Origin: Desulfurococcales archaeon
Lineage (GTDB): Archaea > Thermoproteota > Thermoprotei_A > Sulfolobales > Desulfurococcaceae
Assembly (NCBI GenBank): GCA_027022365.1
Contig: JALVYU010000031.1
Span: forward strand, 124,001-188,000
Length of the DNA stretch: 64,000 nucleotides
Reading direction: 5' to 3'
Shown here: in pieces, positions 3,719 to 63,058 of the stretch
Numbering within the stretch: position 1 is the first letter of the stretch
Layout: each line of letters opens with the position of its first letter
Made by a program: the position numbers and the translations under genes
The notes under the pieces: generated by a model
The model's input: the letters and a program-made list of their open reading frames with translations, nothing else
Database searches by the model: none
What the model was told of the DNA's origin: nothing

Positions 3719-3722
3719 CATA

Positions 3723-5298: not shown

Positions 5299-5315
5299 GT
5301 TCTCGTCCCCATTCA

Positions 5316-8274: not shown

Positions 8275-9333
8275 TTACTTTGGAGCGTTAGCCGCGCGCT
8301 TGAGCAGGTCTTCCCAGACGAGATCCACGTATTCCTGGAACTTCTTGAGGAGCTCCCTGTTCTCAGGCTTAAGTAGGTGTTTGAACCTGCCTTGTACCTC
8401 TACGAATTTCTCTATCGGCTGTTTTAGGCTTGGATTCCTAGCAATTGCTAGGCTTCTATCGGTCAGCATGTATCCTGTCTCTGGAGTCCACTCCCATAGC
8501 GGGAAGTAGCATGTGTCAACGGCTCTTCTCGCTATCTCTATGGCGAGTTCTGTGCCGTGCCTCCATCCACGATCACATGGGCTTAGGGCGTGGATGAATG
8601 CCGGGCCATCGACCTCTATTCCCTTTCTAACCTTTTTCATGAGGTCTAGCCAATGGGCTGGCGTGGCTGTTGCCACGTATGGTATGCGGTGTGCAACCAT
8701 TATGTCGGCTATTGGTTTCTTGGCCTGCTGCTTGCCGGGTATGACTTTGCCTACCGGGCTGGTCGTGGTCCATGCGAATGGCGGTGTTCCACCGCTCCTC
8801 TGTATACCCGTGTTCATGTATGCCTCGTTGTCGTATAGGATGTACAGGAAGTCGTGGCCACGCTCCGCCGCTCCGCTGAGGGCCTGGAACCCGATGTCGA
8901 AGGTGCCTCCGTCTCCTCCGAAGATCACTACGTCGACGTGCTCGTAGGGTAATCTACCAGTCTTCTTGAGCGCTTTGATAGCGGCTTCAACACCGCTACC
9001 CGTCGAGGCGGCGTTCTCGAAAGCGTTGTGTATCCATGGTACTGCCCAGCTGGTGTAGGGGAAGATGGTCGTCGCTACTTCAAGGCATCCGGTGGCGTTG
9101 ACGACTATTGTTGGGCCTCTGAACGCGAAGCTGGCCAGCTTGACTATTATGGGGGCTGCACAGCCTGCACATAGCCTGTGGCCGGGTAGTAGCGCTGGCC
9201 TCTTCTGCTCTGCGAGCTGTCTCGGATTCAGTATTAGCGGTAACTCGCCTTTCCAGCCGGGCTCGAATATCCATAGCTTATACGCGGGCTCGCCCTTCTT
9301 GATCGGGACCTGGGGTAGGGTCTGCTTGGGCAT
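8275..9333 (-). CDS. porB: Pyruvate/2-oxoacid:ferredoxin oxidoreductase beta subunit
   Basis: A thiamine-diphosphate-binding beta chain of the PorB type. It shows CAGCAAP near residue 54, NATGCLE, a GGDGGTFDIG motif with the downstream NEAYMNTG segment that together bind the Mg-pyrophosphate group, and an ALSPCDRGW segment near the C-terminal third. About 352 residues. ATG 9333 is preferred because GGGGGTG lies nine bases upstream; GTG 9345 would place the ribosome site inside the gene. It is the last gene of porGDAB, and two oligo-T tracts follow it. Confidence 0.92.
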   Translation of the reverse strand: MPKQTLPQVPIKKGEPAYKLWIFEPGWKGELPLILNPRQLAEQKRPALLPGHRLCAGCAAPIIVKLASFAFRGPTIVVNATGCLEVATTIFPYTSWAVPWIHNAFENAASTGSGVEAAIKALKKTGRLPYEHVDVVIFGGDGGTFDIGFQALSGAAERGHDFLYILYDNEAYMNTGIQRSGGTPPFAWTTTSPVGKVIPGKQQAKKPIADIMVAHRIPYVATATPAHWLDLMKKVRKGIEVDGPAFIHALSPCDRGWRHGTELAIEIARRAVDTCYFPLWEWTPETGYMLTDRSLAIARNPSLKQPIEKFVEVQGRFKHLLKPENRELLKKFQEYVDLVWEDLLKRAANAPK

Positions 9334-9352
9334 GTCTCGATACACCCCCTTC

Positions 9353-10615: not shown

Positions 10616-10638
10616 ACATGTACACCTCCAGGGGGATC

Positions 10639-10917
10639 TTACTCTGTGGGTTCGGGCTCCATTGTTATTGCTTTAACCGGGCACTCATGGGCACAGAGGC
10701 CACAGCCCTTACAGTAGTCGTAATTAATGATTATTTTCTCCCCGTCCCAGATCACGGCCATGTCTGGACAGTATATCCAGCACAGCATGCACTTGACGCA
10801 CTTGCTGTGATCCACAACGGGTCTCAGCGCTCTCCAGTCACCTGTCTTGTAGTCGGTTGATAGTCTGAAGGGTACGGCTCCAATGGGGAGTTCTTTATAG
10901 CCACGTAGCTCGGCCAT
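10639..10917 (-). CDS. porD: Pyruvate/2-oxoacid:ferredoxin oxidoreductase delta subunit
   Basis: A 92-residue two-cluster ferredoxin: CVKCMLCWIYCP and CKGCGLCAHECP each bind a [4Fe-4S] centre. The start is placed at ATG 10917 because GGAGGTG is positioned eight bases upstream; the longer reading to 10944 would overlap the gamma gene. An N-terminal extension of about 40 residues before the first cluster is usual for archaeal PorD. It lies between porG and porA with short spacers. Confidence 0.9.
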   Translation of the reverse strand: MAELRGYKELPIGAVPFRLSTDYKTGDWRALRPVVDHSKCVKCMLCWIYCPDMAVIWDGEKIIINYDYCKGCGLCAHECPVKAITMEPEPTE

Positions 10918-10921
10918 TGGG

Positions 10922-11485
10922 TCACACCTCCCGGGCCAACTCATACGCTTTCTTTACGAGCTCGATGTTCTTCTCGGCCAGCGGGCCTGGGAATCTCTTC
11001 TTAATTGCCTCCTCAAGGCTCCCCCAGCTGGTGAGTTTTGACGCCTTGAGGAGGGCACCGATCATGGCGGTGTTGGTGATCGGTCTCTTAAGGATCTCGA
11101 GTGCTAGCTTGGTCGCCGGGGTTATATAGACCTTGTACTCGCCCTTGCTAATACCTATATTATTATAAAGTTTCTCGGCATCACCCTCATAGTTGACAAC
11201 AATTATCCCGCCCTTCTTGAGTCCCTGTGTAACATTGACGTTCTTTAACAGTGTAGGATCTAGTACAACAACTATGTCGGGCTCGTAGACCATACTATGG
11301 ATTTCGATAGGCTCCTCGCTTATCCTAGTAAACGCTAGGACTGGCGCGCCACTTCTCTCAGGACCAAACGCTGGGAAGCTCTGGACATGCTTGCCATCAA
11401 TAGCTGCGGCCATCGCGAGGATATTCGACGCGGTCCAGGCGCCCTGGCCTCCTCGGCCATGCCAACGAACTTCGATTAACGCCAT
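10922..11485 (-). CDS. porG: Pyruvate/2-oxoacid:ferredoxin oxidoreductase gamma subunit
   Basis: A 187-residue gamma chain beginning MALIEVRWHGRGGQGAW, the conserved GRGGQG loop, followed by FPAFGPERSGAPV and a DPTLL segment. First gene of the porGDAB operon. The intergenic region upstream is very AT-rich and holds the promoter; a divergent sugar-transport operon starts on its other side. Confidence 0.92.
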   Translation of the reverse strand: MALIEVRWHGRGGQGAWTASNILAMAAAIDGKHVQSFPAFGPERSGAPVLAFTRISEEPIEIHSMVYEPDIVVVLDPTLLKNVNVTQGLKKGGIIVVNYEGDAEKLYNNIGISKGEYKVYITPATKLALEILKRPITNTAMIGALLKASKLTSWGSLEEAIKKRFPGPLAEKNIELVKKAYELAREV

Positions 11486-46312: not shown

Positions 46313-49300
46313 TTGACGAGGATATCCTTCATAATAGGCTATAGCGCATCAATGGCGGCAATGCTCGCGGAAATAGTACAAAAGCTATCTAGGAGATTCG
46401 GCTTCGAATACAAGATAATAACACCCTATGGTCTGGGGAGAGGAGATAAGGAATTCATAAAAGGATCGGATTTCATACTCATTTATTCCTCGAGGCTTCC
46501 AGACGAGTATGAGGATATTCTGGAGGAGATCAAGGACGAAAAGATGATTGCAGGGCTAGAGGATACACATTCTTATCTTACTAATATCGGAGCTGAGCAC
46601 TATACTCGCCTCGTCAAATACCTAAAGATAGGTGGACGTGAAAACCTAGAGTCGCTGGTCTATTACATACTCAAATTATTAGGCTACAATGTAGATGCTC
46701 CTCAGCCCAAGCCCGTTCCATGGCATGGAGTATATCACCCAGCCCTAGGCGTGTATAGGACAACCCAAGAGTATCTTCAAGCCTATAAGTTCTCTGATAG
46801 GCCCCTAGTAGGTATACTATTCTATAGGAATGACTGGCTCTATGGAAGAACCCGTCTCGTAGACGAGCTCGTCAAAGCAATAGAGGCCGAGGGCCTCGGC
46901 GTTCTCCCTGTTTTCACGTACGGTTTCAAAGACAAATACCTGGGAACACCATCATCCGAGGACACTATAAGGGAGTATTTCATACAGGACAACAAATCGA
47001 TAATAGACGTACTAATCAATCTCACGAGTTTCTTCATACTAGACCATGGCAGGAGCAGGGAGTGGAGCGTTAAAGGCTATGAACTTGCCAGTGGACTGCG
47101 TCTACTAAAGAAAATAAACGCACCAGTGCTCGAATACCTGACCATGTATGATAGGAGCCCCGAGCAGTGGAGGGATGATCCAAAGGGATGCGGGTACATG
47201 ACACTAGTATATAGGATAAGCATGTCCGAAGTCGATGGAGCGATAGAACCAATACCGGTTGCCGCAACCAGGCTGAATGAGTACGGGGGCAAAGACATAG
47301 TGCCTCTGCGAGACCAAATAAGGATTGTTGCTAGAAGGATCAAGAAATGGGTTAGACTAAGACATAAACCACCGAGTGAGAGAAGGATAGCGATCATACT
47401 GATAAATCCGCCGTGCAAGGGCCTGGAAGCGAATGTTGCGGTGGGCTTCGGCCTGGATGTCCCCGAGAGCGTTGTCAAGTTCCTCAAGAAGCTGAAGGAG
47501 GCAGGCTACGATGTCGGTTATGAAATCCCGGAAACGGGAGAGGAACTGATAAAGATGATCATGGAGAAAAAGGCGTTAAGCGAGTTCCGATGGACATCTG
47601 TCGAGGACATAGTCACGAATGGCGGAGCGCTGGACATCCTCCCCCTCATCAAGTACCTCGAATACTATCGAGAACTGCCTGAGAAGGCCAGGAGGGAGAT
47701 AGAATCCTCGTGGGGCGACCCCGTTAGAGTGGTTAGGGAGAAGCCGCCGGGGCTGGCGGGCATGATCCATGACGGCGGCTTCGTGATCCCCGGCCTCAGG
47801 TTCGGCAATGTGGTCATTATACCGCAGCCTAAAAGAGGGTGTGCTGGCCCTAGGTGTGATGGAACAGTATGTAAGATACTTCACGATCCAAATGTCCCGC
47901 CGCCCCATCAATGGCTTGCCGTCTACTGGTGGATAACTAGGGTATTTGACGCGGATATTATGATTCACTTCGGGACGCACGGTTACCTCGAGTTCCTGCC
48001 CGGAAAGAACGCTTGTCTATCGAGTTCTTGTTGGCCACTGATAAGCATCGATGACACGCCCCACCTATACGTCTACGTGGTATCAAACCCTATGGAGGGC
48101 TCGATCGCTAAGCGCCGCGGGATGGCGGCACTAGTAGATCATCTCTATCCGCCCATGGCTGCTGCCGACACAATGAGTGAGCTCGACGACCTTGTCAACC
48201 AGTATCTTAAAGCCAAGAATATGGGGGACGAGACGCGCAGGAAAGAGCTACTGGAGATGATAAAGGAGCTGGCGGTGAAGCACGATATAAAGCTACGAAA
48301 AGGTATGGGTGCGGACGAGATCATAGAGGCTGTGCACAAGAAGCTCCACATAATAGGAGAAACAGACATAAATCTCGGACTACACGTCCTAGGCAGGCCG
48401 CCGACCCCTGTATCGAAACTGGCTAAATACGTGGTAACAATAGATACAAGACTCCCCCCAGAACAATCGCTCGTGAAAAATATTTCTCGCATCATAGGAG
48501 TAAAGTACGGGGAACTCGACGATAACCCCATGAAAATCCATGAAAAACTAGGGATACCGTATAGAGAACTGAAAAAGAAGATCAGGAAGGCCGCCGAAAA
48601 AATACTGGAGAAAACCCTTGAGTCGAAGGAACAAGCAGATCATCTACGGATACTCGAGGAAATTATTATGGAGTATTTTCCAGGAGCAAGGATTAGATCC
48701 TTAAATGACTGTATATATGCCCTTAAAAACGCTCTACGAATAGCTGAGCTGCTAACGGATACGGACAAAGAGATGGCCTCCCTTCTAGACGGAGTAGCAG
48801 GAGGATACATTGAACCAGGCCCTTCCGGCAACCTATACAGGGGTAAGATCAACGTACTCCCAACTGGGAGGAACTTCTACCTCCTAGACCCACGGACACT
48901 CCCAACAAGAGCAGCCTGGATGATAGGCACAAAGTCAGCTGATCTTCTCATTAAGTACTATGTTGAGAAGCATGGGAGAATGCCTGAGACCATAGGACAA
49001 GTACTATGGAGTATTGACGCCTTTAAGGCTGATGGGGAGCAGCTGGCCCAGATACTATACCTGCTAGGCGTCGAGCCTGTATGGGATGACGGAGGAAATG
49101 TCGTGGATCTGAAGCCAATACCGCTGGAGGAGCTGGGCAGGCCGAGAATAGATGTCCTGGTGAGAATAAGTGGTATAGTTAGAGATCTCCTACCAAACTA
49201 TATAGAGCTGATCGATAGGGCTGTCTCCATCGTGATCAGTCTGGATGAGCCCCCCGAAATGAACTTTCCGAGGAAACACTATCTCGAAGACGTAGAGAAG

Positions 49301-50173
49301 CTAGTTAGCCTCGGCTACAGTAGGGGAGAGGCCGAAGAGATCGCGAGGCACCGTGTTTACGGTTCACCCCCAGGTAGTTATGGAGCAGGGGTAAATCTGG
49401 CCGTAGAGGCATCCGCGTGGAAGGACAGCGGTGATCTTGCCAAGATATGGGTGCAGTGGAGCGGGTACGCCTATACCCGAAGCAAATACGGTGTCGAGTC
49501 CCACGAGCACCTCGTCCTCAGCCTCAGGCGCGTGGACATGGTTAACAGGAACCATGTAAGCGACGAACACGACATACTGGGCTGTTGCTGTTACTTCTCA
49601 TACCATGGAGGATTCTACAATGCTGCTAAGACGCTGTCGGGCCGTGAGGTAGAAGCTGTGACTATAGACACCCGTAACGTGTACAGTTTAAGGATCAGGG
49701 GGATGGATGAGGAAATAGAGCGTGTGGTCCGGGCCAAACTACTAAATGATCAATGGATAGCTGAGATGAAGAAGCACGGCTACCGTGGTGCAAGCGAGTT
49801 TCAGCGTAAAATACTCCATTTCTATGGATGGGCCTCGGTGTCGGGGCTAGCCGAAGACTGGATGTTCGAGAAAATCGCCGAGAAATATGTTCTGGATGAG
49901 GAAATGAGGGAATGGTTCCTAGAGCACAACAAGTGGGCTCTAGAGGAGATCACTAGGAGGCTAATCGAGGCGGGACTTAGAGGGGTCTGGAAAGCACCTT
50001 CCGAGCTCCTAGATAAATTAAGACAGGTATATTCCGAGATAGAGGGTTATCTCGAAGAGGAACTCGGTGCTGGAGAAGTACAGGGAGGCGCCATAGACGT
50101 GGTGGGCTATGATGAAGTAGAGGAATGGAGGGAGAAGATGGAGAGAATCGATAAAATACTGGAAGAGATATAG
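46313..50173 (+). CDS. cobN: CobN/BchH-type metal chelatase large subunit
   Basis: A 1286-residue large subunit that inserts a metal (cobalt, magnesium or another) into a tetrapyrrole with the AAA+ subunit. Family features are GFGLDVPESVVKFLKKLK (middle), the HFGTHGYLEFLPGK active-site region (about residues 553-566), NPMEGSIAKRR, VRISGIVRDLLPNY and GSPPGSYGAGVN near the C-terminus. The AAA+/VWA partner follows. A CobN role is favoured by overall sequence, but the actual metal and tetrapyrrole are unknown; no cobalamin synthesis genes are seen in the window. Confidence 0.9.
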   Translation: MTRISFIIGYSASMAAMLAEIVQKLSRRFGFEYKIITPYGLGRGDKEFIKGSDFILIYSSRLPDEYEDILEEIKDEKMIAGLEDTHSYLTNIGAEHYTRLVKYLKIGGRENLESLVYYILKLLGYNVDAPQPKPVPWHGVYHPALGVYRTTQEYLQAYKFSDRPLVGILFYRNDWLYGRTRLVDELVKAIEAEGLGVLPVFTYGFKDKYLGTPSSEDTIREYFIQDNKSIIDVLINLTSFFILDHGRSREWSVKGYELASGLRLLKKINAPVLEYLTMYDRSPEQWRDDPKGCGYMTLVYRISMSEVDGAIEPIPVAATRLNEYGGKDIVPLRDQIRIVARRIKKWVRLRHKPPSERRIAIILINPPCKGLEANVAVGFGLDVPESVVKFLKKLKEAGYDVGYEIPETGEELIKMIMEKKALSEFRWTSVEDIVTNGGALDILPLIKYLEYYRELPEKARREIESSWGDPVRVVREKPPGLAGMIHDGGFVIPGLRFGNVVIIPQPKRGCAGPRCDGTVCKILHDPNVPPPHQWLAVYWWITRVFDADIMIHFGTHGYLEFLPGKNACLSSSCWPLISIDDTPHLYVYVVSNPMEGSIAKRRGMAALVDHLYPPMAAADTMSELDDLVNQYLKAKNMGDETRRKELLEMIKELAVKHDIKLRKGMGADEIIEAVHKKLHIIGETDINLGLHVLGRPPTPVSKLAKYVVTIDTRLPPEQSLVKNISRIIGVKYGELDDNPMKIHEKLGIPYRELKKKIRKAAEKILEKTLESKEQADHLRILEEIIMEYFPGARIRSLNDCIYALKNALRIAELLTDTDKEMASLLDGVAGGYIEPGPSGNLYRGKINVLPTGRNFYLLDPRTLPTRAAWMIGTKSADLLIKYYVEKHGRMPETIGQVLWSIDAFKADGEQLAQILYLLGVEPVWDDGGNVVDLKPIPLEELGRPRIDVLVRISGIVRDLLPNYIELIDRAVSIVISLDEPPEMNFPRKHYLEDVEKLVSLGYSRGEAEEIARHRVYGSPPGSYGAGVNLAVEASAWKDSGDLAKIWVQWSGYAYTRSKYGVESHEHLVLSLRRVDMVNRNHVSDEHDILGCCCYFSYHGGFYNAAKTLSGREVEAVTIDTRNVYSLRIRGMDEEIERVVRAKLLNDQWIAEMKKHGYRGASEFQRKILHFYGWASVSGLAEDWMFEKIAEKYVLDEEMREWFLEHNKWALEEITRRLIEAGLRGVWKAPSELLDKLRQVYSEIEGYLEEELGAGEVQGGAIDVVGYDEVEEWREKMERIDKILEEI

Positions 50174-50212
50174 CTTGATTGGTACACAGTCTAATGATAA
50201 TAGGTGCAGATA

Positions 50213-52117
50213 ATGGGTTATTCGACCAGAATAACTGTCTTCCCGTTTACGGCGATAGTGGGGCTAGATGATGCTAAGACAGCACTACTCGCCGTTGCCG
50301 TGAACCCCCTCATAGGAGGCGTACTTCTCAGGGGAGACAAGGGAACAGGTAAGACGACACTGGTAAGATCATTAGCGAACCTACTCCCGGAGATCAAGGT
50401 AGTCGCGGACTGCCCGTTCAACTGTGACCCGGAAAACCCCAGCATGATGTGCGATAATTGTTACAGGCGGTGGAGACGGGGAGAAAAACTACCCGTAACC
50501 ACACGAAAGATGCGCGTAGTCGATCTCCCCTTAAGTGTTACTCCGGACAGATTGATAGGGACGATAGATGTAGAGAAGTTCCTCAGAGAAGGAGTAAAAG
50601 CAGTCAGCCCTGGACTATTGGCCGAGGCAAACAGAAATATACTCTACATAGATGAAGTAAACCTTCTCGACGACTACATAGCTGATCTAATACTAGATGC
50701 CGCGGCATACGGCTGGAACATCATTGAAAGAGAACATGTTTCCTTCAAACACCCCTCAAGATTCATACTAGTTGGGAGTATGAACCCCGAGGAAGGCGAG
50801 CTCAGGCCCCAGCTACTGGACAGGTTCGGCCTAGTGGTAGATGTCAATGCTCCAATGGATCCAGAATTGAGAGCAGAGATAGTTAGGCGTGTCGAGGAAT
50901 ACAGTATCGACCCCATAGCGTTCTACAAAAAATATGAGCCGCTCGAAAACGAACTCCGTGAAAAAATAGCACGAGCACGGAAAATACTGCGCGAAGTAAC
51001 CATAGACGATGAACTACTCAGAGCAGTCGCTGAGAAAATAGCAGAGATGAAGATAAGGACCTGCAGGGCGGAGATAACTGTTGTTAGGACGGCTAAGGCA
51101 CTAGCAGCGCTGGATGGCCGGAGAAAAGTTAGCGAGGACGATATAGAGAAAGCCATGAAACTAGCCCTACCCCATAGGATAAAGCTGAACCCCTTCGAAG
51201 AAGCGGGAAAAAGAGAACGCCCTTTCGAGCAAAAATCTTCCGGGCAGACTAAACCACATAGTCATAACCATCATTACTCCAAGGACTATAATCTGGCTCA
51301 ACAAGGAGGAGGGGGAAATAGTCCAGGTAGCGGGAAAGAGCTGAGGCTAGGCTCGCTAAGACCTAGTACCTCGCTACATATCATTCCTATAAGGAGGGCT
51401 AGTAGCAGAAAATGGATGGATTATGGAAGGAGAAGCAGGAAAACGTTTAGGACTAGAATAGGGGGTTTCGTCGGAGCTCCTATAGGTTATATCTACCCTG
51501 CCCCGAGACCAAGAGACATAGACCTCGTAGGCACTCTCATCGCATCAACGATCATGGGAGATCGTGGTAAGTGTCTCGCCGAGAAAATAAGGCGTTGCCC
51601 CGTACCTGTCCTGACTATGATCTGTCTGGATGCTAGCGGGAGCATGAATTACCGGAAAAGAATAATGATCGCGAAGGCGATCGCATATATGATCACTAGG
51701 AGAAGCTATACGCTAAAAACATGGTTGTCGCTCCTTGCCTTTAGAGGTGAAGGCGTTAAGGAGTATATTCCGCCTACTAGGAACTACAGAAAAATAATGG
51801 ATTTGATCGAGAAGATCCCATCAGGTAGAAAAACACCATTATCCGCGTGCCTATATCGAGTGCTTGAGGAAGTATCTATCTTTCGTAAAAAATACAGGAA
51901 TTCTGAGGCAGAGGTCTTCCTCATCACCGACGGCAAAGCCAACGTCTCAATTACTGGTAAGAATATTAAGAGTGAACTAGTGGGCCTAGCCAGGGAGATT
52001 AGGAGGAGGAGAATAAGACTCTATATTATTGATCCGAGAGGGAGAACAGTAGATCCCGGCATTGACTATATAAAATTGATAGCTTACCATTCGGGTGGAA
52101 AGGTGATCAGGATCTAA
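50213..52117 (+). CDS. Chelatase AAA+/VWA subunit (ChlI-ChlD/BchI-BchD fusion-like)
   Basis: A 634-residue ATPase partner of CobN. Walker A is GDKGTGKTT (about 41-49), a four-cysteine group (C67, C71, C80, C83) may bind zinc or a cluster, and Walker B is ILYIDEVNLL (about 143-152). A His/Gly-rich linker (around 340-375) precedes a C-terminal von Willebrand A domain with the MIDAS motif CLDASGSMN (about 470-478). Thus the I and D functions are in one protein. ATG 50213 follows AGGTGCA. It is 40 bases after cobN. Confidence 0.9.
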   Translation: MGYSTRITVFPFTAIVGLDDAKTALLAVAVNPLIGGVLLRGDKGTGKTTLVRSLANLLPEIKVVADCPFNCDPENPSMMCDNCYRRWRRGEKLPVTTRKMRVVDLPLSVTPDRLIGTIDVEKFLREGVKAVSPGLLAEANRNILYIDEVNLLDDYIADLILDAAAYGWNIIEREHVSFKHPSRFILVGSMNPEEGELRPQLLDRFGLVVDVNAPMDPELRAEIVRRVEEYSIDPIAFYKKYEPLENELREKIARARKILREVTIDDELLRAVAEKIAEMKIRTCRAEITVVRTAKALAALDGRRKVSEDDIEKAMKLALPHRIKLNPFEEAGKRERPFEQKSSGQTKPHSHNHHYSKDYNLAQQGGGGNSPGSGKELRLGSLRPSTSLHIIPIRRASSRKWMDYGRRSRKTFRTRIGGFVGAPIGYIYPAPRPRDIDLVGTLIASTIMGDRGKCLAEKIRRCPVPVLTMICLDASGSMNYRKRIMIAKAIAYMITRRSYTLKTWLSLLAFRGEGVKEYIPPTRNYRKIMDLIEKIPSGRKTPLSACLYRVLEEVSIFRKKYRNSEAEVFLITDGKANVSITGKNIKSELVGLAREIRRRRIRLYIIDPRGRTVDPGIDYIKLIAYHSGGKVIRI

Positions 52118-53687: not shown

Positions 53688-53745
53688 TTTTTATAATCCG
53701 ATTGCCTTTTTTCTTCAAGTAAATGAAAAACGTAAATGGGGAGAG
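53688..53745 (+). promoter_or_regulatory. Promoter and ribosome site of the permuted binding protein
   Basis: TTTTTATAA (53688-53696) is a good TATA-like element; GGGGAGA (53739-53745) precedes ATG 53751. The spacing fits a leader of about 30 bases. Confidence 0.5.
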
Positions 53746-53750
53746 TACTC

Positions 53751-55988
53751 ATGAGATCTAAATACACACGTGCCCTGTCAAAGGGGGCTGCCGCGGCTAT
53801 AGCTATAATTATAATTATAGGTATTATAGCTGGAGCATATTACTATATGCAGAGCCAGAAGCCCTCTGCAACCACTACCACTTCCCCGCCCAGTACTACC
53901 ACTCAGTCGCCCACCCAGACGGCTAGCCCGACCACTACCTCCACTGGTACCCAGACCACTACCTCGCCGCCCAGTCAGAAGCCGCCTATTCACAACACAG
54001 TCATATATCTTATACAGAACGATGCTACAACGAGAGTACTAACGATCAAGAAGGGAGTGGCGGATCTTGGTGTGGTGCCAGCCGACCAGCTGGACGCATT
54101 AGCTGGCACCACTTATGACGGGACGAACTTCAAGATCATAAAGCAGGAGATGGGGCTAAGCCTCACCATAGTCTATATTGTGCTCAACACTTACAAGCCG
54201 CCATTCAACAACCTGCTGGTAAGACAAGCACTAGCCTACGCTACCCCGTACAAGATGATCTGGGAGACCGTATACGCCGGCACCGTGACCAACCTAGTAG
54301 GAGTAATACCTAAGGGCATGCTGGGATGGACCGATTATAAGGTCATACAGTACAAGTTCGATCTAGCTAAGGCCAAGGAGCTGATACAGAAGAGCGGCAT
54401 CAACCCATCAAACTACGTCATAACCATCTATTACAACCAGGGCAACACCCAGAGAGCAAAGATCGCTAGCCTGCTATCGCAGTACTGGGGACAGTTAGGA
54501 TTCAAGGTCATGGTACAATCACTATCATGGCCACAGCTACTCGAGAAGACCTCTAAGCCCGAGTTCGATGTCTACATTATCGGATGGGCGCCCGACTACC
54601 TAGACCCCGACGACTATGCTGGACCACTAGTAGGCGGTGGAACAAAGTTCGACTCAGTAGAAGTATATCAGGTCAACTCGGCGGCTGATGTATCCAAGTA
54701 CCTGAGCAAGGCGACTGTTATCGACACAAAGGACGCCTACGTAGTAGTAGGCCCTGCGGGCACTGGCGCAAGCGTAAGCATCAGTGGCAAACCAATCGTT
54801 GTCGTCCAGTACAAGTTGTCAGCGAAGCAGATACCTATACCGAACTGCACTGCCTTCAGTAGTATTGACCCATCATTCTATAGGAACGTAACACTAGATG
54901 CTCTAATCCAGGCAGGCAGGTACGCCGTCGAGTACAAGGTCAGAGAAGCGATCTATCAGGCGGTCGAGAGGATATCGAACGAGCAACTACCATGCATATG
55001 GCTTGGCCAGTACATGGTTGTACGTGACTACTGGGACTGGATTCAGGGCAGATACTACAACCCGATCCTAGCCGAGAGATGGGATCTGATATGGGAGAAG
55101 CCCATACCTAACCCGCCTAGCATCGGTATAGGGAACTACGTCAATGACGCCCACACCCTGGTGATAGCCACCATTGGATGGCCGCAGAGCTTCGACCCAG
55201 CCAAGAGCTACGAGACCTTCGGATGGGAGATCTTCCACGAGATAGGCGACACCCTAGTAACCTACTGGAAGGCCGATACCACACACATAGTCCCGGACGC
55301 TGCAGTTGCATGGGCATACAGCAAGAACGGTACTGAGTGGTTCTTCGTAATAAGAGACGGGCTAAAGGCGTATGACCCCAACAGCGGCAAGGTATACCCG
55401 GTCAACGCGACTGACGTATTGTTCACTATATGGAGGATCGCGAGACTGGGTCTAGACCCATCATGGATGATAACCACATTCATAGACGTCAATGCTAGCA
55501 GAGTATACACCGAGAACGAATTTGATCAAATACTCGCTAAGGGAGGTATCTACGCTACCTATAATGGCAAGACCGAGGAGGTAAAGAGCCTATCACAGCT
55601 ACTACAGCTCTTCGGATATAGTGGCAAGACCGCAGGAGTAGTGATGCTCAAGCTATACAAGCCATACTCAGCCATACTCAACATCCTGGCCGACCCGTTC
55701 ACAATGATAATACCCGCCAAGTACCTCTTCGATAATGTACCGGAATTAAAGGGCAAGTACGAGGAGGCAATGAAGGCAGCACAGTGGGGTAAGAACCCAG
55801 AGGCCTGGATCAAGTACATAGGTACAGGCGACAAGGAGCCAACCCACCAGTTCCTACACACACACCCGATTGGAACCGGGCCATACTACGTGGCCAGCTT
55901 CAAGCAGGACTCATACATCATACTAAAGCTCAACCCGTACTACTGGAACGCAACACTCTGGTACCAGCTGTACGGCTATAAGCCCTAA
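53751..55988 (+). CDS. Oligopeptide-type ABC substrate-binding protein with permuted domain order
   Basis: A 745-residue extracellular binding protein of SBP family 5. ATG 53751 follows GGGGAGA. Residues about 12-30 are a signal/anchor, then a Thr/Ser/Pro-rich linker to about 80. The mature part begins IHNTVIYLIQNDATTRVLTI, LVRQALAYATPYKM and GWAPDYLDPDDYAGP, which normally occur in the second half of the family. From about residue 464 it has TLVIATIGWPQSFDPAK and GTEWFFVIRDGLKA, which normally form the first half, and it ends with HPIGTGPYYVASFKQ. Thus the order is C-half then N-half. It lies near, but not adjacent to, dppBCDF. Confidence 0.88.
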   Translation: MRSKYTRALSKGAAAAIAIIIIIGIIAGAYYYMQSQKPSATTTTSPPSTTTQSPTQTASPTTTSTGTQTTTSPPSQKPPIHNTVIYLIQNDATTRVLTIKKGVADLGVVPADQLDALAGTTYDGTNFKIIKQEMGLSLTIVYIVLNTYKPPFNNLLVRQALAYATPYKMIWETVYAGTVTNLVGVIPKGMLGWTDYKVIQYKFDLAKAKELIQKSGINPSNYVITIYYNQGNTQRAKIASLLSQYWGQLGFKVMVQSLSWPQLLEKTSKPEFDVYIIGWAPDYLDPDDYAGPLVGGGTKFDSVEVYQVNSAADVSKYLSKATVIDTKDAYVVVGPAGTGASVSISGKPIVVVQYKLSAKQIPIPNCTAFSSIDPSFYRNVTLDALIQAGRYAVEYKVREAIYQAVERISNEQLPCIWLGQYMVVRDYWDWIQGRYYNPILAERWDLIWEKPIPNPPSIGIGNYVNDAHTLVIATIGWPQSFDPAKSYETFGWEIFHEIGDTLVTYWKADTTHIVPDAAVAWAYSKNGTEWFFVIRDGLKAYDPNSGKVYPVNATDVLFTIWRIARLGLDPSWMITTFIDVNASRVYTENEFDQILAKGGIYATYNGKTEEVKSLSQLLQLFGYSGKTAGVVMLKLYKPYSAILNILADPFTMIIPAKYLFDNVPELKGKYEEAMKAAQWGKNPEAWIKYIGTGDKEPTHQFLHTHPIGTGPYYVASFKQDSYIILKLNPYYWNATLWYQLYGYKP

Positions 55989-56038: not shown

Positions 56039-58210
56039 CTACCCAAGCCTAATATTCCCTATTTCTTCATAGTTCTCAAGGCTAAGAACAAGTATTTCAC
56101 TCGGCGACACAAGGTACAGCTTGTCACCAATATAGAGCGAGCGTCCACCATTGTTTAGCTCAACTATCTTAACTAGTCCTAGCTCGTCGTTAGCATAACT
56201 CATTATCAAGAAGCCGAAGCATCTGTATCCCCATACGCCAGTGTTTGTTGTCGATCCCGAAGACCAAGCCCAGCCGTGGCTCAACGGAATTATGAATACT
56301 TTCTTCTCGGGAACCAAGGTAAAGGCGTGGTAGTCATAGAGTACAGGCGATGTTACTAGTTTTCCGATACTGGCCCTTGAAAGCTGGGATACATGTTTTG
56401 GATCGCTGATATTGTATAGTGATATAGTTAGATTACCGCTGTCAACACCGATTCCAAGCAATATGTCGTGTCCAAGGGGATGCAGGTAGACGTTATATCC
56501 CGGTATCTTGAGATAACCTATTATCTCCGGGTGATATGGGTCTGAAACGTTAATAGCGAATAATGGGTCTACTCTACGATAGGTTACGAGAATATAGATG
56601 TCGTTGATCAGTCTCCCCGTCTTAATTGTTTCTCCAACAGCTATATCGTCAAGTCTTGAAACCATTTTTAGATTTTCTAAGTCTACAATTGTTAGGGCAT
56701 TAGATCCCTTCTTGGTCTTTGTCCATATCCACACGTCTCTAATTATGCTAGGATAATTGGTGGAGTTGATCTCATGTGTGTAAGTCTGTTTTTCACCGTT
56801 AGGTAGAGTTATCGTAATTCCAATGTCCTTCTCTACATTTCCGATCTTATATGTGTAAATGTTTATAACTGGTGTATATTCCACGTAGTTGGTTGCAACT
56901 ATAAAGTATTTGCCCCTGTACTCTTCCATGCAGAACTGGTTCTGCAGATATCCCTTTACCTCGAAGCTCCCTCTATACTTGATTGACAAACCGTTTATAG
57001 CGAAAACATAGAATCTTGATTTTGCGGTGAAAGATTCTTGTTTAACTAGTTTATTAATTGTCAGGGCAAGATTACCGGCCTCACTCTGAGGTAATGATTT
57101 AACGTACTGCCTGAAGAGATTATAGGCAGTCATTACCGTGTAATACGTATTGTTTTTGAGTAGCTCTGATATTTTTTCGGCCAGGCTTGCTGGTAACATA
57201 TGTAGGGTTGCTTCGAGAACATGTTTGATAGATATTAAATAGATGTTTGAAGCCGGCGAGAATACAACGAGATGTTTATAGGACATATATATCTTTGAAG
57301 CTGCCCCCGTCATTATCGATAATACATTGTATTTTAGGCTTGTCAGGTTCGCAGCGAAGATATTGGTATAGTATTCTGGAGGATTATAAACTAGCAGTAT
57401 CCTGTCTATCGGGAATGGAATTCCATTAATAATTGGTATCTCCACAGGTTCAACGGGTTGACTAGTAACTACGTATAGGATTCTCCGGTAGAGACGAGCA
57501 CTGATCAGGCGGCCCGTGATATTATATGTCTGTAGGAGATATGGGTGCTCGGGCTCTGTTATGTTTATTAATTTAATAATAGTTTGCTCACTATTGAATC
57601 TTCCAACGGATATTAGTCTTGTTAGGGGCCTAATAACGCCGCGATTACTCATTATTACCGCTAGGATATCCTGATCTAGGAAGATACCTCTAATGGTATG
57701 GTTAAACCTGATTACTGATAACACCTTCTCATGTTTCGCATCGACGACATACGCTTTATCATTATTGACAACGACTATTATCTTTCCATTAGTCTTGACA
57801 ATATCTGGTTCATCAATACCTTTCACTTGCACATTTGTCGAGGAATATCCTTGCGCGGTCTCGCTATATCCCATCTTAATAGTGCCTTCGATCTGATATA
57901 ACAGAGGTAGTGTAGTGATTAGTGGTCTTATAGTAGTTGATGTGCCAGCACTGGATGTTCTCTCCACGTTTTCAATAGTTTTTAAGTATGATATTAGATC
58001 GGTATAGGATTTGAATTTCTGTAGCTGTGTAGCATTTATTGGCTGGGGGATCATACTAGCTGGACTAGTACTTTGGGGTGGAGATGGGGTTATGACTGGT
58101 GTTGTTACCCTAGTTCCGATTTGGCTTGGCGCCAGATAGAGCCCCATAATGGGTATGAGGATTCCTGCCATGAGTGCTATGGCGGCAGATAATATCAGAC
58201 GCTTATCCAT
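56039..58210 (-). CDS. Secreted beta-propeller protein (COG4880-like)
   Basis: A 723-residue extracellular protein. ATG 58210 follows AGGTGGGA. The first ~25 residues are a signal/anchor and residues ~25-90 a low-complexity linker, after which the chain reads as repeated beta-propeller blades with NVQVKGIDEPDIVKTNGKIIVV (here given up to the diagnostic DEPDIVKT), many hydrophobic strands and NxS/T sites. From memory this is the archaeal and bacterial 'distantly WD40-related beta-propeller' group. It may attach surface proteins or cleave/hold peptides; its role is unknown. It separates the binding-protein gene from dppBCDF. Confidence 0.75.
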   Translation of the reverse strand: MDKRLILSAAIALMAGILIPIMGLYLAPSQIGTRVTTPVITPSPPQSTSPASMIPQPINATQLQKFKSYTDLISYLKTIENVERTSSAGTSTTIRPLITTLPLLYQIEGTIKMGYSETAQGYSSTNVQVKGIDEPDIVKTNGKIIVVVNNDKAYVVDAKHEKVLSVIRFNHTIRGIFLDQDILAVIMSNRGVIRPLTRLISVGRFNSEQTIIKLINITEPEHPYLLQTYNITGRLISARLYRRILYVVTSQPVEPVEIPIINGIPFPIDRILLVYNPPEYYTNIFAANLTSLKYNVLSIMTGAASKIYMSYKHLVVFSPASNIYLISIKHVLEATLHMLPASLAEKISELLKNNTYYTVMTAYNLFRQYVKSLPQSEAGNLALTINKLVKQESFTAKSRFYVFAINGLSIKYRGSFEVKGYLQNQFCMEEYRGKYFIVATNYVEYTPVINIYTYKIGNVEKDIGITITLPNGEKQTYTHEINSTNYPSIIRDVWIWTKTKKGSNALTIVDLENLKMVSRLDDIAVGETIKTGRLINDIYILVTYRRVDPLFAINVSDPYHPEIIGYLKIPGYNVYLHPLGHDILLGIGVDSGNLTISLYNISDPKHVSQLSRASIGKLVTSPVLYDYHAFTLVPEKKVFIIPLSHGWAWSSGSTTNTGVWGYRCFGFLIMSYANDELGLVKIVELNNGGRSLYIGDKLYLVSPSEILVLSLENYEEIGNIRLG

Positions 58211-58289
58211 AAGTCCCACCTGAGGATGATTCTTGGTTTCATTAGATATATTATGAAGCCTTGGACAGACGTGTTCGAATACTGGACAC

Positions 58290-58709
58290 TTATTTGGGGC
58301 TGAATAGCTCTTTCTTGATCCTTAGCCCCTCGAGAAAGAAGATAGCTGAGGACGCCCAAGAGATCATAATAGCTGTCAGCCTATCAATGTTGAAACCCTC
58401 TATGATTGAAACAAGTGTTTCGCCTATAAATATTCCGAGGAAGAAGAACCCGTAGATCATTATTCGTGGCAGTATCTTCCTGCCTATGACGAGATATCCT
58501 TCGATGCCAATAATTCTTGCTGGTGTATAGCCCTCGGGAGTCCTCTTAACTAGTCCTGATTCAATCATTTTCTTGAGATGATAGTGTACACTGCTTGGTG
58601 CGAGACCGGTTGCTGTTGCTATCTCTCTGACGCTTGCAGGCTTGTTTCTCTCGATCAGATATACATAAATTTTCAATTGATTCTTATCTAGTCTGTTTTC
58701 GTCCGTCAA
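58290..58709 (-). CDS. Membrane-linked winged-helix regulator (ArsR/MarR-like)
   Basis: A 139-residue protein. The N-terminal ~65 residues are a winged helix (ASVREIATATGLAPSSVHYH region with recognition helix), followed by a linker and a C-terminal hydrophobic region (about 85-130) that forms two membrane helices. Such one-component membrane-tethered regulators could respond to surface conditions. It sits next to the beta-propeller gene on the same strand and may control it and the adjacent divergent dppBCDF operon. Confidence 0.75.
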   Translation of the reverse strand: MTDENRLDKNQLKIYVYLIERNKPASVREIATATGLAPSSVHYHLKKMIESGLVKRTPEGYTPARIIGIEGYLVIGRKILPRIMIYGFFFLGIFIGETLVSIIEGFNIDRLTAIMISWASSAIFFLEGLRIKKELFSPK

Positions 58710-58958: not shown

Positions 58959-59957
58959 ATGGCGGATATCAAGCGGTTCCTGGCCCGTAGAGCACTGACC
59001 TTCATACCGACATTAATAGGAGTAACTTTCCTTGCATACATAATCGCTTTCGCAATTCCCGCCAACCCGGCGCAGGCGTGGGCTGGCGGTATTAAGGCTA
59101 ATCCAGAAGTTGTCGCACGTATTATCAAAGAGTACCATCTAAACGATCCTTGGTACGTTCAGTACTACTATTTCATGAAGGGAATACTCACGAACTCAAT
59201 TATAGATCCCCGCTGGGGATACCCTGTAATGACGTATATGTTGTCGAGATTTCCGATTACGTTCCAATTAACATTATTTGCGTTGTTCTTCCTCATAGTG
59301 CTCGGCATTCCCCTGGGGATAGTATCGGCGTTGAAGAAGGATTCGTGGATCGACGCCCTTGTTAGGACTTGGGCACTCGTAGGAGTATCTGTACCGATAT
59401 TCTGGCTGGGATACATATTCATATATGTATTCTTCTACCAGCTAGGATGGATCAATATAGCGGGCATACCATACCCCAAAGTCCACATTACCGGCGTGCC
59501 GATAATTGACGCTATGCTGAGTGGTGAGTGGAACATAGTTTGGGAGAACATAAAGAGATTTATACTGCCGGGCTTCACCCTCGGGTTCGCCGGCATCGGG
59601 GTGATCGCTAGGCTTGTCAGGAACAGCTTCTTAGAGGCGATAAACAGCGACTACATATATTTCGCCAGGATGCGTGGACTGAAGTATAGGAGGATAATGA
59701 CACACGCACTCAGAAACGCCCTGGTACCAGTTGTAACCGTGCTCGGGCTACAGTTTGGAGGACTCCTGGGTGGGGCACCGATCACAGAAACAGTCTTCAG
59801 TATACCTGGTATGGGCCGCGCAATGGTTGACGCTATCTTCTCGATGGACTTCCCACTGCTCATAGCGGGTACTTTCCTTGTGGCCATAATCTATGTTATA
59901 ACTAACCTGATCGTGGACATCTTATACGCAGTGATTGATCCGAGGGTGAGATTCTGA
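58959..59957 (+). CDS. dppB: Oligopeptide/dipeptide ABC transporter permease (DppB type)
   Basis: A 332-residue permease with about six membrane helices. The first begins FIPTLIGVTFLAYIIAF, and the EAA-type loop appears as YFARMRGLKYRRIMTHALRN near residues 237-256, typical of DppB/OppB. First gene of dppBCDF; its stop overlaps the dppC start. It is likely to serve a peptide-type binding protein, perhaps the permuted one 3 kb upstream. Confidence 0.92.
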   Translation: MADIKRFLARRALTFIPTLIGVTFLAYIIAFAIPANPAQAWAGGIKANPEVVARIIKEYHLNDPWYVQYYYFMKGILTNSIIDPRWGYPVMTYMLSRFPITFQLTLFALFFLIVLGIPLGIVSALKKDSWIDALVRTWALVGVSVPIFWLGYIFIYVFFYQLGWINIAGIPYPKVHITGVPIIDAMLSGEWNIVWENIKRFILPGFTLGFAGIGVIARLVRNSFLEAINSDYIYFARMRGLKYRRIMTHALRNALVPVVTVLGLQFGGLLGGAPITETVFSIPGMGRAMVDAIFSMDFPLLIAGTFLVAIIYVITNLIVDILYAVIDPRVRF

Positions 59958-61090
59958 TGTCCGCGGAAGAGGTATATGAGAAAAAGATCCTTGACAGGTT
60001 CAGTGATGCCCTCATAGCGTTCATAGTGAAGATAATAACGCTGTTTAAGAAGGACTGGGCAAAGAAGAACAAGAGCAGAATCGATGAATGGAGGCTCATG
60101 CTATACGCTCTCAACAGGAGCCCTATAGGGATAGCGGGCCTCGTACTCGGCCTAGGCTTTGTAATCATAGGCATCATAGGGCCCTGGATAGCCCCGCATA
60201 GCTATGACTTCTCATACATCATGGCGACTGGTAAGTTCAAAGAATACTATCTCGCACCGCCCGGCACAGGTGGAGCACTCCTCGGAACCGACGACCTCGG
60301 GAGAGATCTTCTCAGCCTACTACTATACGGTGCAAGAGTATCGTTGATGGCCACAGTGCTCGTGCTCCCGATAGGCATAACCATAGGTATAATAATAGGG
60401 CTCGTAGCAGGATACTATGGCGGTGCAGTGGACGAGATACTGATGAGGCTCACCGACGTATTCCTAGCATTCCCAGGACTAATTCTTGCCCTGGCTTTCA
60501 GCAGCGCATTAACCCAGAGAATAGCGCTCGCAATAGCTCATAGTCAGTTCTTGACCAGCCTCATATCATCATTATTCGGCGTAAAACCGGTAGACGCTCT
60601 CAACGTGGCACCTGTCCTCTCGATCATAGTGGCGTTATGGATTGTCTGGTGGCCCGGCTACGCTAGAATGACGAGAGGACTAACCCTGCAGGAGAAGAAC
60701 AATGTATATGTGGAGGCATCCAAGGCCCTAGGCCTCAGCTCGCCGGCGATCATGTTCCGCCACATACTACCCAATATCCTAGGCCCAATCATAGTTATGA
60801 TGACTCTTGACATAGGAGGAGTGATCCTCACAGAGGCGGGTCTAAGCTTCTTGATGGGAGCAATGGTGAAGATACCGGACTGGGGAGCAATAGTACAGGC
60901 CGGATCACAATATCTTGTCCAAGGCAAGTGGTGGCTGGTGATTTTCCCAGGACTAGCGATACTGATCTCGGTGCTGGGATGGAACCTTTTCGGCGATAGC
61001 CTAAGAGACATCCTGGACCCGAGAACCCGTAGAAGCATCGAGTTCAAGATCAAGAAGAAAAAGAAGATGGAGGAGGGTGAAGAGCAATGA
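59957..61090 (+). CDS. dppC: Oligopeptide/dipeptide ABC transporter permease (DppC type)
   Basis: A 377-residue second permease. A cytosolic N-terminal part of about 50 residues (unusual and charged) precedes a first helix (IGIAGLVLGLGFVIIGIIG). LGTDDLGRDLLSLLLYGARVSL is split here by position near 112-133 and is diagnostic of DppC/OppC; the EAA loop is EASKALGLSSPAIMFRHILP near 259-278. It overlaps dppB by one base and dppD by four, so the genes are coupled. Confidence 0.93.
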   Translation: MSAEEVYEKKILDRFSDALIAFIVKIITLFKKDWAKKNKSRIDEWRLMLYALNRSPIGIAGLVLGLGFVIIGIIGPWIAPHSYDFSYIMATGKFKEYYLAPPGTGGALLGTDDLGRDLLSLLLYGARVSLMATVLVLPIGITIGIIIGLVAGYYGGAVDEILMRLTDVFLAFPGLILALAFSSALTQRIALAIAHSQFLTSLISSLFGVKPVDALNVAPVLSIIVALWIVWWPGYARMTRGLTLQEKNNVYVEASKALGLSSPAIMFRHILPNILGPIIVMMTLDIGGVILTEAGLSFLMGAMVKIPDWGAIVQAGSQYLVQGKWWLVIFPGLAILISVLGWNLFGDSLRDILDPRTRRSIEFKIKKKKKMEEGEEQ

Positions 61091-62085
61091 GTAGCCCTCA
61101 GTTCCGTGAACCCCTCATAGAGGTCAAGGATCTATATGTTTACTTCTACACATATGCCGGCGTAGTAAAAGCCATCGAAGATATGACGTTCACGATCTAT
61201 AAGGGCGAGAAATTCTGCATGGTGGGTGAAACCGGCTGCGGGAAATCAGTGACCAGCAGGGCACTAGCAAACATAGTTCCCAGCCCCGGCAGAATAGTCA
61301 AGGGTAAAGTGATCTATTATAGGGACGGCAAGCCCATCAACATACTAGAACTCAGCGAGGAGCAACTCAGAGAGATACGTGGGAAGGAGATAGCCTATAT
61401 AGTCCAAGACCCCTCCAGCGCCTTGGATCCCCTCTACACGATAGGTTATCAGATCGTCGAGACAATGATAGACCACTACACGGTCAAGGACTGGAAGGAG
61501 GGCTACAAGAGAGCAGTAGAACTACTCAGAGAAGTACTAATGCCCGACCCGGAGCAGAGGATCAAGAACTACCCCCACGAGCTCAGCGGAGGACAGAGGC
61601 AGCGCGCGGTGATAAGTATAGGGCTGAGCAACATGCCGCGCCTACTCATAGCAGACGAGCCAACCAGTAGCCTAGACGTGACCGTACAGGCACAGTTACT
61701 GGAACTTCTCAGGAGGCTTGTTAGAGAACACGGCCTAACCCTCTTCCTGATCACGCACGACATGGGTGTCGTAGCAGAGATGTGCGACCGCGTAGCAGTA
61801 CTATATGCAGGAAACATCGTAGAACTAGCTCCAGTCGACGAGATATTCAAGAATCCAAAACACCCATACACGATGGGATTGCTACGCGCGGTCCCTAACC
61901 CGCAGGCAGATATAGAGAAGCTAGAACCAATACCGGGAACCATACCAAACCTGATATATCCACCGCCGGGATGCAGGTTCCATCCACGCTGCCCATTTGC
62001 TAGGGATGTGTGTAAGCGGGAGAAGCCTCCACTAGTAGAGGTTGGCCCAGGACACTATGTGAGGTGCTGGCTCCACGCGGAGTAA
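61087..62085 (+). CDS. dppD: Oligopeptide/dipeptide ABC transporter ATPase (DppD type)
   Basis: A 332-residue ATPase. Walker A GETGCGKSV (about residues 46-54), LSGGQRQRAVI signature and LLIADEPTSSLDV Walker B are clear; the C-terminal PPGCRFHPRCPFA segment with cysteines is diagnostic of the OppD/DppD class, where in some members a 4Fe-4S cluster or metal is bound. Overlaps dppC and lies 13 bases before dppF. Confidence 0.95.
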   Translation: MSSPQFREPLIEVKDLYVYFYTYAGVVKAIEDMTFTIYKGEKFCMVGETGCGKSVTSRALANIVPSPGRIVKGKVIYYRDGKPINILELSEEQLREIRGKEIAYIVQDPSSALDPLYTIGYQIVETMIDHYTVKDWKEGYKRAVELLREVLMPDPEQRIKNYPHELSGGQRQRAVISIGLSNMPRLLIADEPTSSLDVTVQAQLLELLRRLVREHGLTLFLITHDMGVVAEMCDRVAVLYAGNIVELAPVDEIFKNPKHPYTMGLLRAVPNPQADIEKLEPIPGTIPNLIYPPPGCRFHPRCPFARDVCKREKPPLVEVGPGHYVRCWLHAE

Positions 62086-62098
62086 GGAGGTGTGAACC

Positions 62099-63058
62099 AT
62101 GGTTGAACCCCTAGTCCATGTCGAGGGGCTCAAGAAATACTTCCCTGCAGGGGGATTCCTCAAGAAAGTATGGGTTAAAGCAGTTGATGGTATATCGTTC
62201 GATATACTTGAGGGTGAAACTCTAGGCCTAGTCGGAGAATCTGGCTGTGGAAAAACAACTACTGGGCGTCTAATACTTAGGCTTATCAAGCCCACTGCGG
62301 GCAAAGTATTGTTCGCCGGCAAAGATGTGACAAGGCTGAGGGGTAAAGAACTGAAGGCCTTCCGTAGAGAGGCAAACATTGTGTTCCAAGACCCGTACAC
62401 GAGCCTCGATCCAAGGCAGACGGTCTTTAACATAATAATGGAGCCTCTAAAGACGCACGGGATACAGGTAGATGATCCGGAGGGATTCGTGACTAAGCTA
62501 CTCTACGAGGTAGGGCTCAACGAGACCCACCTGTACAGATACCCCCACGAGTTCAGCGGGGGACAGAGACAACGCATTGCAATAGCTAGGATCCTGGCCC
62601 TCAGGCCGAAATTCATAGTCCTGGACGAGCCGACCTCAGCGCTCGACGTATCTGTTCAAGCACAAATACTCAACATGCTGAAAGAGCTCCAGAAAAAATA
62701 TGGTTTAACATACCTGTTCATAAGCCACAACCTAGGCGTTGTCAGATACATGAGCAACCGCATAGCCGTCATGTACTTAGGCAAGATAGTAGAGATAGCG
62801 CCCGCAAAGACACTGTTCGAGAACCCACTGCACCCTTACACAAAGGCACTACTAGCATCAATACCCGTACCAGACCCCGAGGCAGCTAGAGCAAAGCCAA
62901 AAATACAGATAACGGGCGAGCCACCGAGCCCGATAAACCCGCCGCCAGGATGCAGGTTCGCGCCGAGATGCCCATATGCAAAGGATCTATGCCGCCAGAA
63001 AGAGCCCAAGCTTAAGGAAGTAGAGCATAACCACTTCGTAGCGTGCTGGCTATATTAA
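62099..63058 (+). CDS. dppF: Oligopeptide/dipeptide ABC transporter ATPase (DppF type)
   Basis: A 319-residue ATPase. Walker A GESGCGKTT, FSGGQRQRIAIA signature, VLDEPTSALDV Walker B and a C-terminal PPGCRFAPRCPYA with cysteines mirror DppF/OppF. It completes the four-gene transporter operon. GGAGGTG precedes its ATG. The convergent nitroreductase gene follows after about 60 bases. Confidence 0.95.
   Translation: MVEPLVHVEGLKKYFPAGGFLKKVWVKAVDGISFDILEGETLGLVGESGCGKTTTGRLILRLIKPTAGKVLFAGKDVTRLRGKELKAFRREANIVFQDPYTSLDPRQTVFNIIMEPLKTHGIQVDDPEGFVTKLLYEVGLNETHLYRYPHEFSGGQRQRIAIARILALRPKFIVLDEPTSALDVSVQAQILNMLKELQKKYGLTYLFISHNLGVVRYMSNRIAVMYLGKIVEIAPAKTLFENPLHPYTKALLASIPVPDPEAARAKPKIQITGEPPSPINPPPGCRFAPRCPYAKDLCRQKEPKLKEVEHNHFVACWLY

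Follow-up and report, generated by a model that had tools for sequence, protein, structure and literature searches.

Circular permutation of a family-5 substrate-binding protein in a Desulfurococcales archaeon, and its relatives in several rotations

Can the substrate-binding receptor of an ATP-binding cassette (ABC) importer be encoded with its segments in a rotated order, and what becomes of the transporter that it serves? The question is raised by a gene of a Desulfurococcales archaeon (GenBank assembly GCA_027022365.1). The window, i.e. the whole stretch of DNA that was analysed, comprises 64,000 nucleotides of contig JALVYU010000031.1 (positions 124,001 to 188,000, forward strand), and it carries a gene for a family-5 substrate-binding protein (SBP). 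In canonical family-5 proteins an N segment is followed by a middle (M) and a C segment, N-M-C. The window SBP has the order M-C-N, which we call arrangement P1. L numbers denote the loci or genes and G numbers the genomes that were compared. A rotated order had been proposed in the original prediction, made from the sequence alone, in which the second in-frame ATG at 53751 served as the start. Very probably, the gene encodes a membrane-tethered, circularly permuted cluster-C SBP of a Dpp/Opp-type importer and is one of many rotations of this scaffold.

The Pfam profile PF00496 matched the window SBP with 196.3 bits (gathering cut-off 32.4) in two stretches: profile positions 145-365 fell on residues 83-303 and profile positions 2-142 downstream of these in the same frame. 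In a phmmer comparison with DppA (5f1q, precursor numbering) residues 82-298 corresponded to 236-447, residues 387-448 to 467-528 (weak), residues 472-567 to 28-124 and residues 702-738 to 198-234 (weak). Segment profiles located each segment once, M at residues 85-318, C at 330-455 and N at 474-743. This mapping placed the cut between the NPYYW motif and the strand that canonically follows it, just as predicted. The usual N-M-C order, which is not part of the Pfam definition, was not found in the window SBP, and on its sequence the protein is classed as a permuted family-5 homologue and not as a canonical member.

For rotation in silico a canonical profile of 509 positions was taken from 15 canonical proteins. 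The unrotated window SBP matched it in three pieces, the best domain scoring 187 bits. After rotation a single domain covered profile positions 28-437 with 293 bits; the C part stood separately at 30 bits behind an insertion between M and C. Among the permuted homologues L087 rose from 497 to 704 bits, L199 from 203 to 367, L213 from 234 to 327 and L207 from 155 to 248. Smaller gains were obtained with L022 (160 to 235), L242 (292 to 322) and L240 (175 to 214). Three canonical controls, themselves rows of the canonical profile, lost bits when rotated by half (760 to 410, 642 to 336 and 743 to 389).

AlphaFold2 modelled the window SBP from residue 76 with a pLDDT of 77 and a pTM of 0.72 (18 sequences) and the homologue L055, which has the order C-N-M (arrangement P2), with a pLDDT of 78.8 and a pTM of 0.75 (17 sequences). 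With VIA-align, P1 model residues 9-380 superposed on residues 209-507 of 1dpe, the last being the end of the DppA chain (Z 24.8, rmsd 4.5, 286 aligned), and P2 model residues 152-650 on 1dpe 1-423 (Z 16.6, rmsd 5.5, 395 aligned). The Foldseek matches, 50 listed for each model, covered 342-391 columns for P1 and 502-628 for P2. Lower coverage of P1 is expected if P1 keeps M and C, and P2 keeps N and M, in the usual order. The predicted structures match the DppA fold over the alignable parts, M and C in the P1 model and N and M in the P2 model.

Some of these results weigh against a simple rotation. The sequential aligners left the N part of the P1 model unaligned to DppA; therefore, it was placed by sequence and by the P2 model. 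Model confidence was middling, and model residues 416-443, a stretch within the N segment, had a pLDDT below 50. L058 and L111 gained nothing on rotation, and the gain of L240 was only partial.

The rotated order is not peculiar to the window. Full-length collinear P1 homologues with 43-97% identity were present in 15 of 60 other related genomes (L007-L013, L015-L022), and further ones among the named records. A profile of the C-to-N junction matched 40 of 398 Thermoproteota genomes at E<=1e-20. The junction was spanned by 40 of the 41 rows; the remaining row, from G036, covered positions 66-141 only. All SBP open reading frames (ORFs) in the 29 Thermoproteota stretches examined were permuted (29 of 29): 12 were M-C-N of the main family, 16 were C-N-M and one, L199, belonged to another family. 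E-value limits varied among the phylum searches from 1e-14 to 1e-20. The phylum of the Thermococcus record yielded 60 full-length rows in 60 of 115 genomes, and copies that were broken or incomplete came from G750, G820 and G771; of 20 loci examined, 16 were P2, three P1 and one unclassed. Two permuted copies looked broken: that at G771:C1 411114-411529 consists of two overlapping pieces with short frames, and that at G820:C1 841296-841574 contains one internal stop. Seven junction-spanning rows were obtained from 292 genomes of the phylum of L087 (Thermoplasmatota), and all seven were confirmed as permuted. In the phylum of the Archaeoglobus record 9 of 16 rows from 246 genomes spanned the junction. 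Eight were classed, four as P2 and four as a third arrangement, P3; row G1129 stood outside the order classification. One of 19 rows spanned the junction in 251 genomes of Chloroflexota and none of 35 in 249 genomes of Bacillota, the latter a weak negative with a profile made from archaeal rows. Candidates from G607, G689 (two), G441 and G678, in which the junction was only partly spanned, were rejected since their sequences are canonical.

Segment order in profiles and phmmer, rotation in silico with its controls, partial structure models and many related genomes agree. They bear out the rotated order that had been predicted, and therefore the window SBP is a circular permutation and not an assembly error. 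The layout of the gene and its neighbours is given in Table 1.

Table 1. Features of the window SBP gene and of the neighbouring genes (positions count from the first letter of the window; aa, amino acid residues).
Feature	Position	Strand	Remarks
Permuted family-5 SBP gene, order M-C-N (P1)	53736..55988	+	750 aa; open from ATG 53736
N-terminal signal/membrane-anchor segment, about aa 1-40	53736..53855	+	hydrophobic stretch by eye; lipobox Cys absent
Thr/Ser/Pro-rich stalk, about aa 41-81	53856..53978	+	sequence, homologue alignment
M segment, aa 82-318	53979..54689	+	DppA from residue 209 on; canonically after the N half
M-C insertion, aa 319-375	54690..54860	+	helix and beta-hairpin, family-specific; limits by eye
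C segment, aa 376-455	54861..55100	+	DppA C-terminus up to residue 507
Linker from old C-terminus to old N-terminus, aa 456-473	55101..55154	+	about 18 residues
N segment, aa 474-743	55155..55964	+	DppA 1 to about 207; terminates in NPYYW, then stop; sequence
PF09826 beta-propeller gene and gene of a 139-aa helix-turn-helix-like protein	56039-58709	-	346 bits (PF09826); small protein by eye
Permease 1, Dpp/Opp-type importer	58959..59957	+	named by eye; syntenic in homologues
Permease 2	59957..61090	+	by eye
ATPase 1, DppD/OppD-like	61087..62085	+	by eye
ATPase 2, DppF/OppF-like	62099..63058	+	by eye

We envisage the following for the product. The old N- and C-termini are joined by the linker of about 18 residues and the chain opens after NPYYW, so that the membrane stalk enters the folded protein there. 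The folded protein would be an ordinary two-lobe Venus flytrap, as modelled for the M and C part, which would bind its ligand, close and pass the ligand to the permeases. The main change would then be the place where the tether meets the protein.

Among homologues of the window SBP the opening of the chain has at least five different positions, named P1 to P5. In the numbering of mature DppA, read by eye off the phmmer and VIA-align alignments, these are at about 209 (P1), 423-441 (P2), 343 (P3), 274 (P4) and 252 (P5). P1 opens in the loop after NPYYW (DppA 208/209). P2 is opened between M and C, and its exact ends vary: the helix is C-terminal in several Acidilobaceae and their kin, N-terminal in Thermococcus (L066-L069) and missing in Archaeoglobus (L070, L072), and a P2b group is cut between the two hairpin strands. 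The M-C insertion of the window SBP is absent in canonical SBPs, and its pieces correspond to both chain ends of P2 homologues. Because P1 thus holds the P2 end pieces as an internal insertion, the sequences suggest that P2-like ends are the older state. P1 and P2 have similar C-to-N linkers; that of the P3 gene L058 is longer and that of P2b shorter. P3 opens near canonical profile position 347/348; it is found in L058 of the main family, in L087, L111, L281 and L282-L284, and in the group L213, L216, L217 and L219 (with a truncated L220). L111 had been read as canonical on segment profiles and was corrected to P3 by the canonical profile. P4 opens near profile position 250/282 in L199 (Thermoproteota) and in L285 (from the Chloroflexota search, with an adjoining canonical paralogue), and P5 at 247/270 in L207 of the main family. 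Order labels were wrong or unsure for the truncated L042, L046, L053, L121, L129 and L220 and for the partly matched L051, which were excluded from later trees. If domain III of DppA extends from 261 to 478, the tether remains on domain I in P1 and P5 and is shifted to the other lobe in P2, P3 and P4.

Several permuted loci have features of their own. In L199 (G116, ORF 3856-5952, minus strand) a CARDB domain lies between the anchor and the rotated domain. L281 (G1274, ORF 3233-4996, minus strand) is a P3 SBP with a PGF-CTERM-like tail, and C-terminal anchoring is possible. In L079 (ORF 8869-11253) a P2-order SBP has an unusually long C-terminal extension after the M segment. The single-contig genome G205 carries P1 and P2b paralogues (loci L186 and L187), each with its own transporter genes adjoining.

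Some close pairs differ in rotation. The P1 gene L240 is 74-76% identical, block by block, to the P2 genes L242, L252 and L258, and 75 and 72% identical by block to the Archaeoglobus P2 gene L070. Its nearest P2 rows were L070/L072 in a tree of 53 rows and L242/L252 in a tree of 55 rows (see below). L240 and its P2 relatives all adjoin two permease genes followed by two ATPase genes (loci L268-L273, L070). The P3 gene L087 shares 88% identity, in both blocks, with the canonical-order gene of G063; the values for G064 and G065 were 80-84%. At the DNA level (blastn) L087 1677-8945 is collinear with L082 1-7251, after which L087 9012-9473 matches L082 8404-8865 and L087 9496-10535 matches L082 7325-8364. 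L087 is permuted in place, with two blocks swapped behind an unchanged signal.

By which route does a rotation come about? The original prediction had assumed a tandem duplication followed by loss of the first N half and the last C half, and tandem duplication with subsequent trimming would also be our explanation. This part of the prediction did not find its counterpart: a duplication intermediate was absent among 278 SBP ORFs, which counts against the proposed route. Double coverage exceeded 25 profile columns in a single ORF, where it amounted to 28. The 1297-aa ORF of L175 was rejected as a tandem intermediate because in it a gap of N letters links an ordinary P1 SBP to an unrelated gene upstream. 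The tail of L087 gave no support for a leftover of a lost second copy, as 375 of 500 shuffles were as good in the comparison with the canonical continuation and 25 of 500 in that with its own start. The lack of an intermediate among the 278 ORFs, and the clean swap in L087 for which blastn gives no third block, would suit fission and re-fusion of separately encoded halves, an accepted route to circular permutation (PMC3320104). Yet intact pairs of separately encoded halves were not noticed, though no dedicated search was made, and the copies in G771 and G820 that are split or contain a stop look like broken genes. Furthermore, nearly all complete proteins among the permuted ones that were read have kept a signal or anchor at the front, which duplication in place explains simply. 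We regard fission and re-fusion as possible, if somewhat doubtful, and favour duplication with trimming.

How often the order changed was examined in trees of 53 and 55 rows, hand-picked to hold each order and the nearest canonical rows; earlier row sets contained 49 of 67 rows, after removal of near copies and distant canonical rows, and 96 of 169. In the careful 53-row tree (main family and three canonical rows) the order needs 7 changes, and a starred clade of 12 (100/99) mixes P1, P2 and P5. Quick single-segment trees required 8 changes with N alone and 7 with M alone and recovered the mixed P1/P2/P5 clade at 93 and 91. The 55-row tree over all families required 14 changes of order; P3 needs 6, all of them forced by starred branches. 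With 53 rows, approximately unbiased (AU) tests rejected grouping in one clade for P1 (p 3.4e-6) and likewise for P2 without P2b (p 3.5e-35); with 55 rows they did so for P3 (p 1.25e-70) and for the 32 permuted rows together (p 3.5e-6). Earlier AU tests with fewer rows had given 0.003 for P1 and 7.5e-5 for all P2. Two points speak against many independent rotations. Changes in the trees count gains and losses together, and in the earlier AU test with fewer rows P2 without P2b as one clade was not rejected (p 0.111); the shift from 0.111 to 3.5e-35 followed the addition of rows, among them Thermococcus relatives.

Permutation recurs in many lineages, and the scaffold was reopened repeatedly at five or more loops. 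The rotations span archaea and, at a loop other than that at DppA ~343, one genome of the Chloroflexota sample. We consider it fairly probable that the family-5 scaffold is a natural rotation machine in which the opening was moved many times, at at least five loops, that at DppA ~343 being used in six places of the tree. Selection on the exit of the tether, from the same or the other lobe, may drive this, and the outcome would amount to a natural permutation scan of a working receptor. Alternatively, the chain was permuted once in ancient times, and recombination of paralogues or transfer of mosaic genes produced the remaining orders, which would leave few true rotations. The likeness of the C-to-N linkers in P1 and P2 indeed indicates that the main family probably stems from one permuted ancestor. 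Recombination would be possible between the P1 and P2b paralogues of G205, support for several deep branches is poor and the placement of L281 is weak (91/74). However, the N-alone and M-alone trees both demand repeated changes and both contain the mixed clade, P3 as one clade was rejected, and L087, L111, L281, L282-L284 and L213/L216/L217/L219 are not part of the main family but stand next to canonical rows or in their midst. A single ancient rotation is therefore improbable, and we prefer repeated reopening of the scaffold.

Does a rotated SBP still serve a transporter? Permease and ATPase genes of presumed Dpp/Opp type follow the window SBP gene. In the flank comparison permease and ATPase genes adjoined most permuted SBP genes; in one set of permuted loci 35 of 35, and in another 7 of 7, had a permease or ATPase match next to the SBP gene. 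Loci L041, L077, L078 and L081 end at the SBP gene. Because of this neighbourhood the permuted SBPs most likely serve as the importer's receptor, and the transporter apparently stays intact. Not all observations fit equally well: in the window two opposite-strand genes part the SBP gene from the permeases, and L057, L063, L076 and L087 have flanking sequence without an adjoining permease match of their own. As a permease set was not detected downstream of L087, it may be an orphan SBP. The intervening gene pair is common to L036 and L037; L038 has both genes, the small one on the other strand, and the other compared loci have neither. Just upstream of the window SBP gene (46313-52117) are two chelatase genes, named by eye, one CobN/BchH-like (1286 aa) and one ChlI/ChlD-like (637 aa), which are also present in L037.

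The binding site gives a hint of the ligand. In DppA, R383 and D436 bond the dipeptide (PMC12136057). In the alignment to 8z1y D436 corresponds to D287 and R383 to N234 of the window SBP. The dipeptide-binding pair as such is absent; the counterpart of D436 is kept, and D287 is invariant in 14 of 14 P1 rows. Because the aspartate is invariant while the arginine is replaced by N234, our best guess is a peptide-like ligand with a free amine; sugars are possible. The DppA equivalog profile NF043070 gave 100.1 bits with the window SBP against a cut-off of 1005, a score which a permuted protein cannot reach in full, and no cut-off for an NCBIfam ligand name was reached by any of five proteins. The P1 SBP gene of L175 (G237) is preceded by a gene which looks by eye like a family-3 glycoside hydrolase, possibly a hint at a sugar ligand.

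Has the rotated SBP instead left transport for another role, e.g. as a sensor, surface protein or enzyme? One could think so from the two unrelated genes ahead of the permeases in the window, the long extension of L079, the CARDB domain of L199 and the missing permease match of L087. With most permuted genes that have enough flank adjoining permease and ATPase genes, and with the ligand-anchoring aspartate invariant in all 14 P1 rows compared, such a change of role is very unlikely, and a receptor of an importer remains our reading.

Finally, an artefact of assembly or binning, which the original prediction had named as its possible undoing and for which one may point to the metagenome bins or draft genomes that provided the window and many relatives, is practically nil. 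P1 is found on the single-contig genomes G024, G221, G119, G084, G205 and G132 and in many independent assemblies, P2 on the single-contig genomes G018, G026, G271, G337 and G169, and P3 on one contig of 2,178,400 bases (G1203); the single-contig genomes rule out misassembly as the source of the arrangement.

Natural circular permutation is usually viewed as a rare event linking distant proteins. Permutations of DNA methyltransferases were reportedly described by Jeltsch 1999 and Bujnicki 2002. Here, orthologues in one conserved operon occur in several rotations, which makes the route and the cost of permutation testable in close pairs. Profile or structure searches that assume one order mis-describe the permuted SBPs, and the window gene gets only fragmentary matches from Pfam and NCBIfam; a junction profile still recovers the permuted family in full length, in the Thermococcus phylum from 60 of 115 genomes. 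In the open-licence literature searched a permuted family-5 SBP was not found in print. In that literature, the earlier statement that no such permuted binding protein had been described stands for family 5. It does not hold for glycine-betaine-binding SBPs: circular permutants of these (e.g. ProX and OpuAC) and of molybdate-binding SBPs were reported by CPSARST in 2008 (PMC2395249). New, as it seems, are the family in which permutation occurs, how many rotations there are, the repeated use of the same loops and pairs of close relatives with rotation as their main difference.

Compared with canonical family-5 SBPs (DppA 1dpe/1dpp/8z1y, OppA, NikA; PF00496), the window SBP has the same segments, each once, the same kind of partners, i.e. 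two permeases and two ATPases, and the conserved aspartate of DppA D436. It differs in the order, Middle-C-N instead of N-Middle-C, in the helix-plus-hairpin insertion between M and C, in the joined old ends and in the tether at the opening after NPYYW. The betaine and molybdate permutants are likewise natural permutations in SBPs with the binding pocket kept. They belong to a different, smaller SBP class, the pairs have less than 24% identity, and section 11 of PMC2395249 contains neither a rotation series in one orthologous operon nor close pairs like those with 72-88% identity here. Among the 50 best structure matches listed for the P1 model by Foldseek and by VIA-align, the names are those of peptide-, nickel-, sugar- or other solute-binding proteins and none is that of a betaine-binding one. 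Several circular orders within one family are also known from DNA methyltransferases (cited in PMC3320104); those are cytosolic enzymes, whereas the SBP is a tethered receptor in a conserved operon. The classic natural permutation of saposin and swaposin (PMC3320104) is one swap in a small helical domain, in contrast to the numerous rotations reported here for a protein about 500 residues long.

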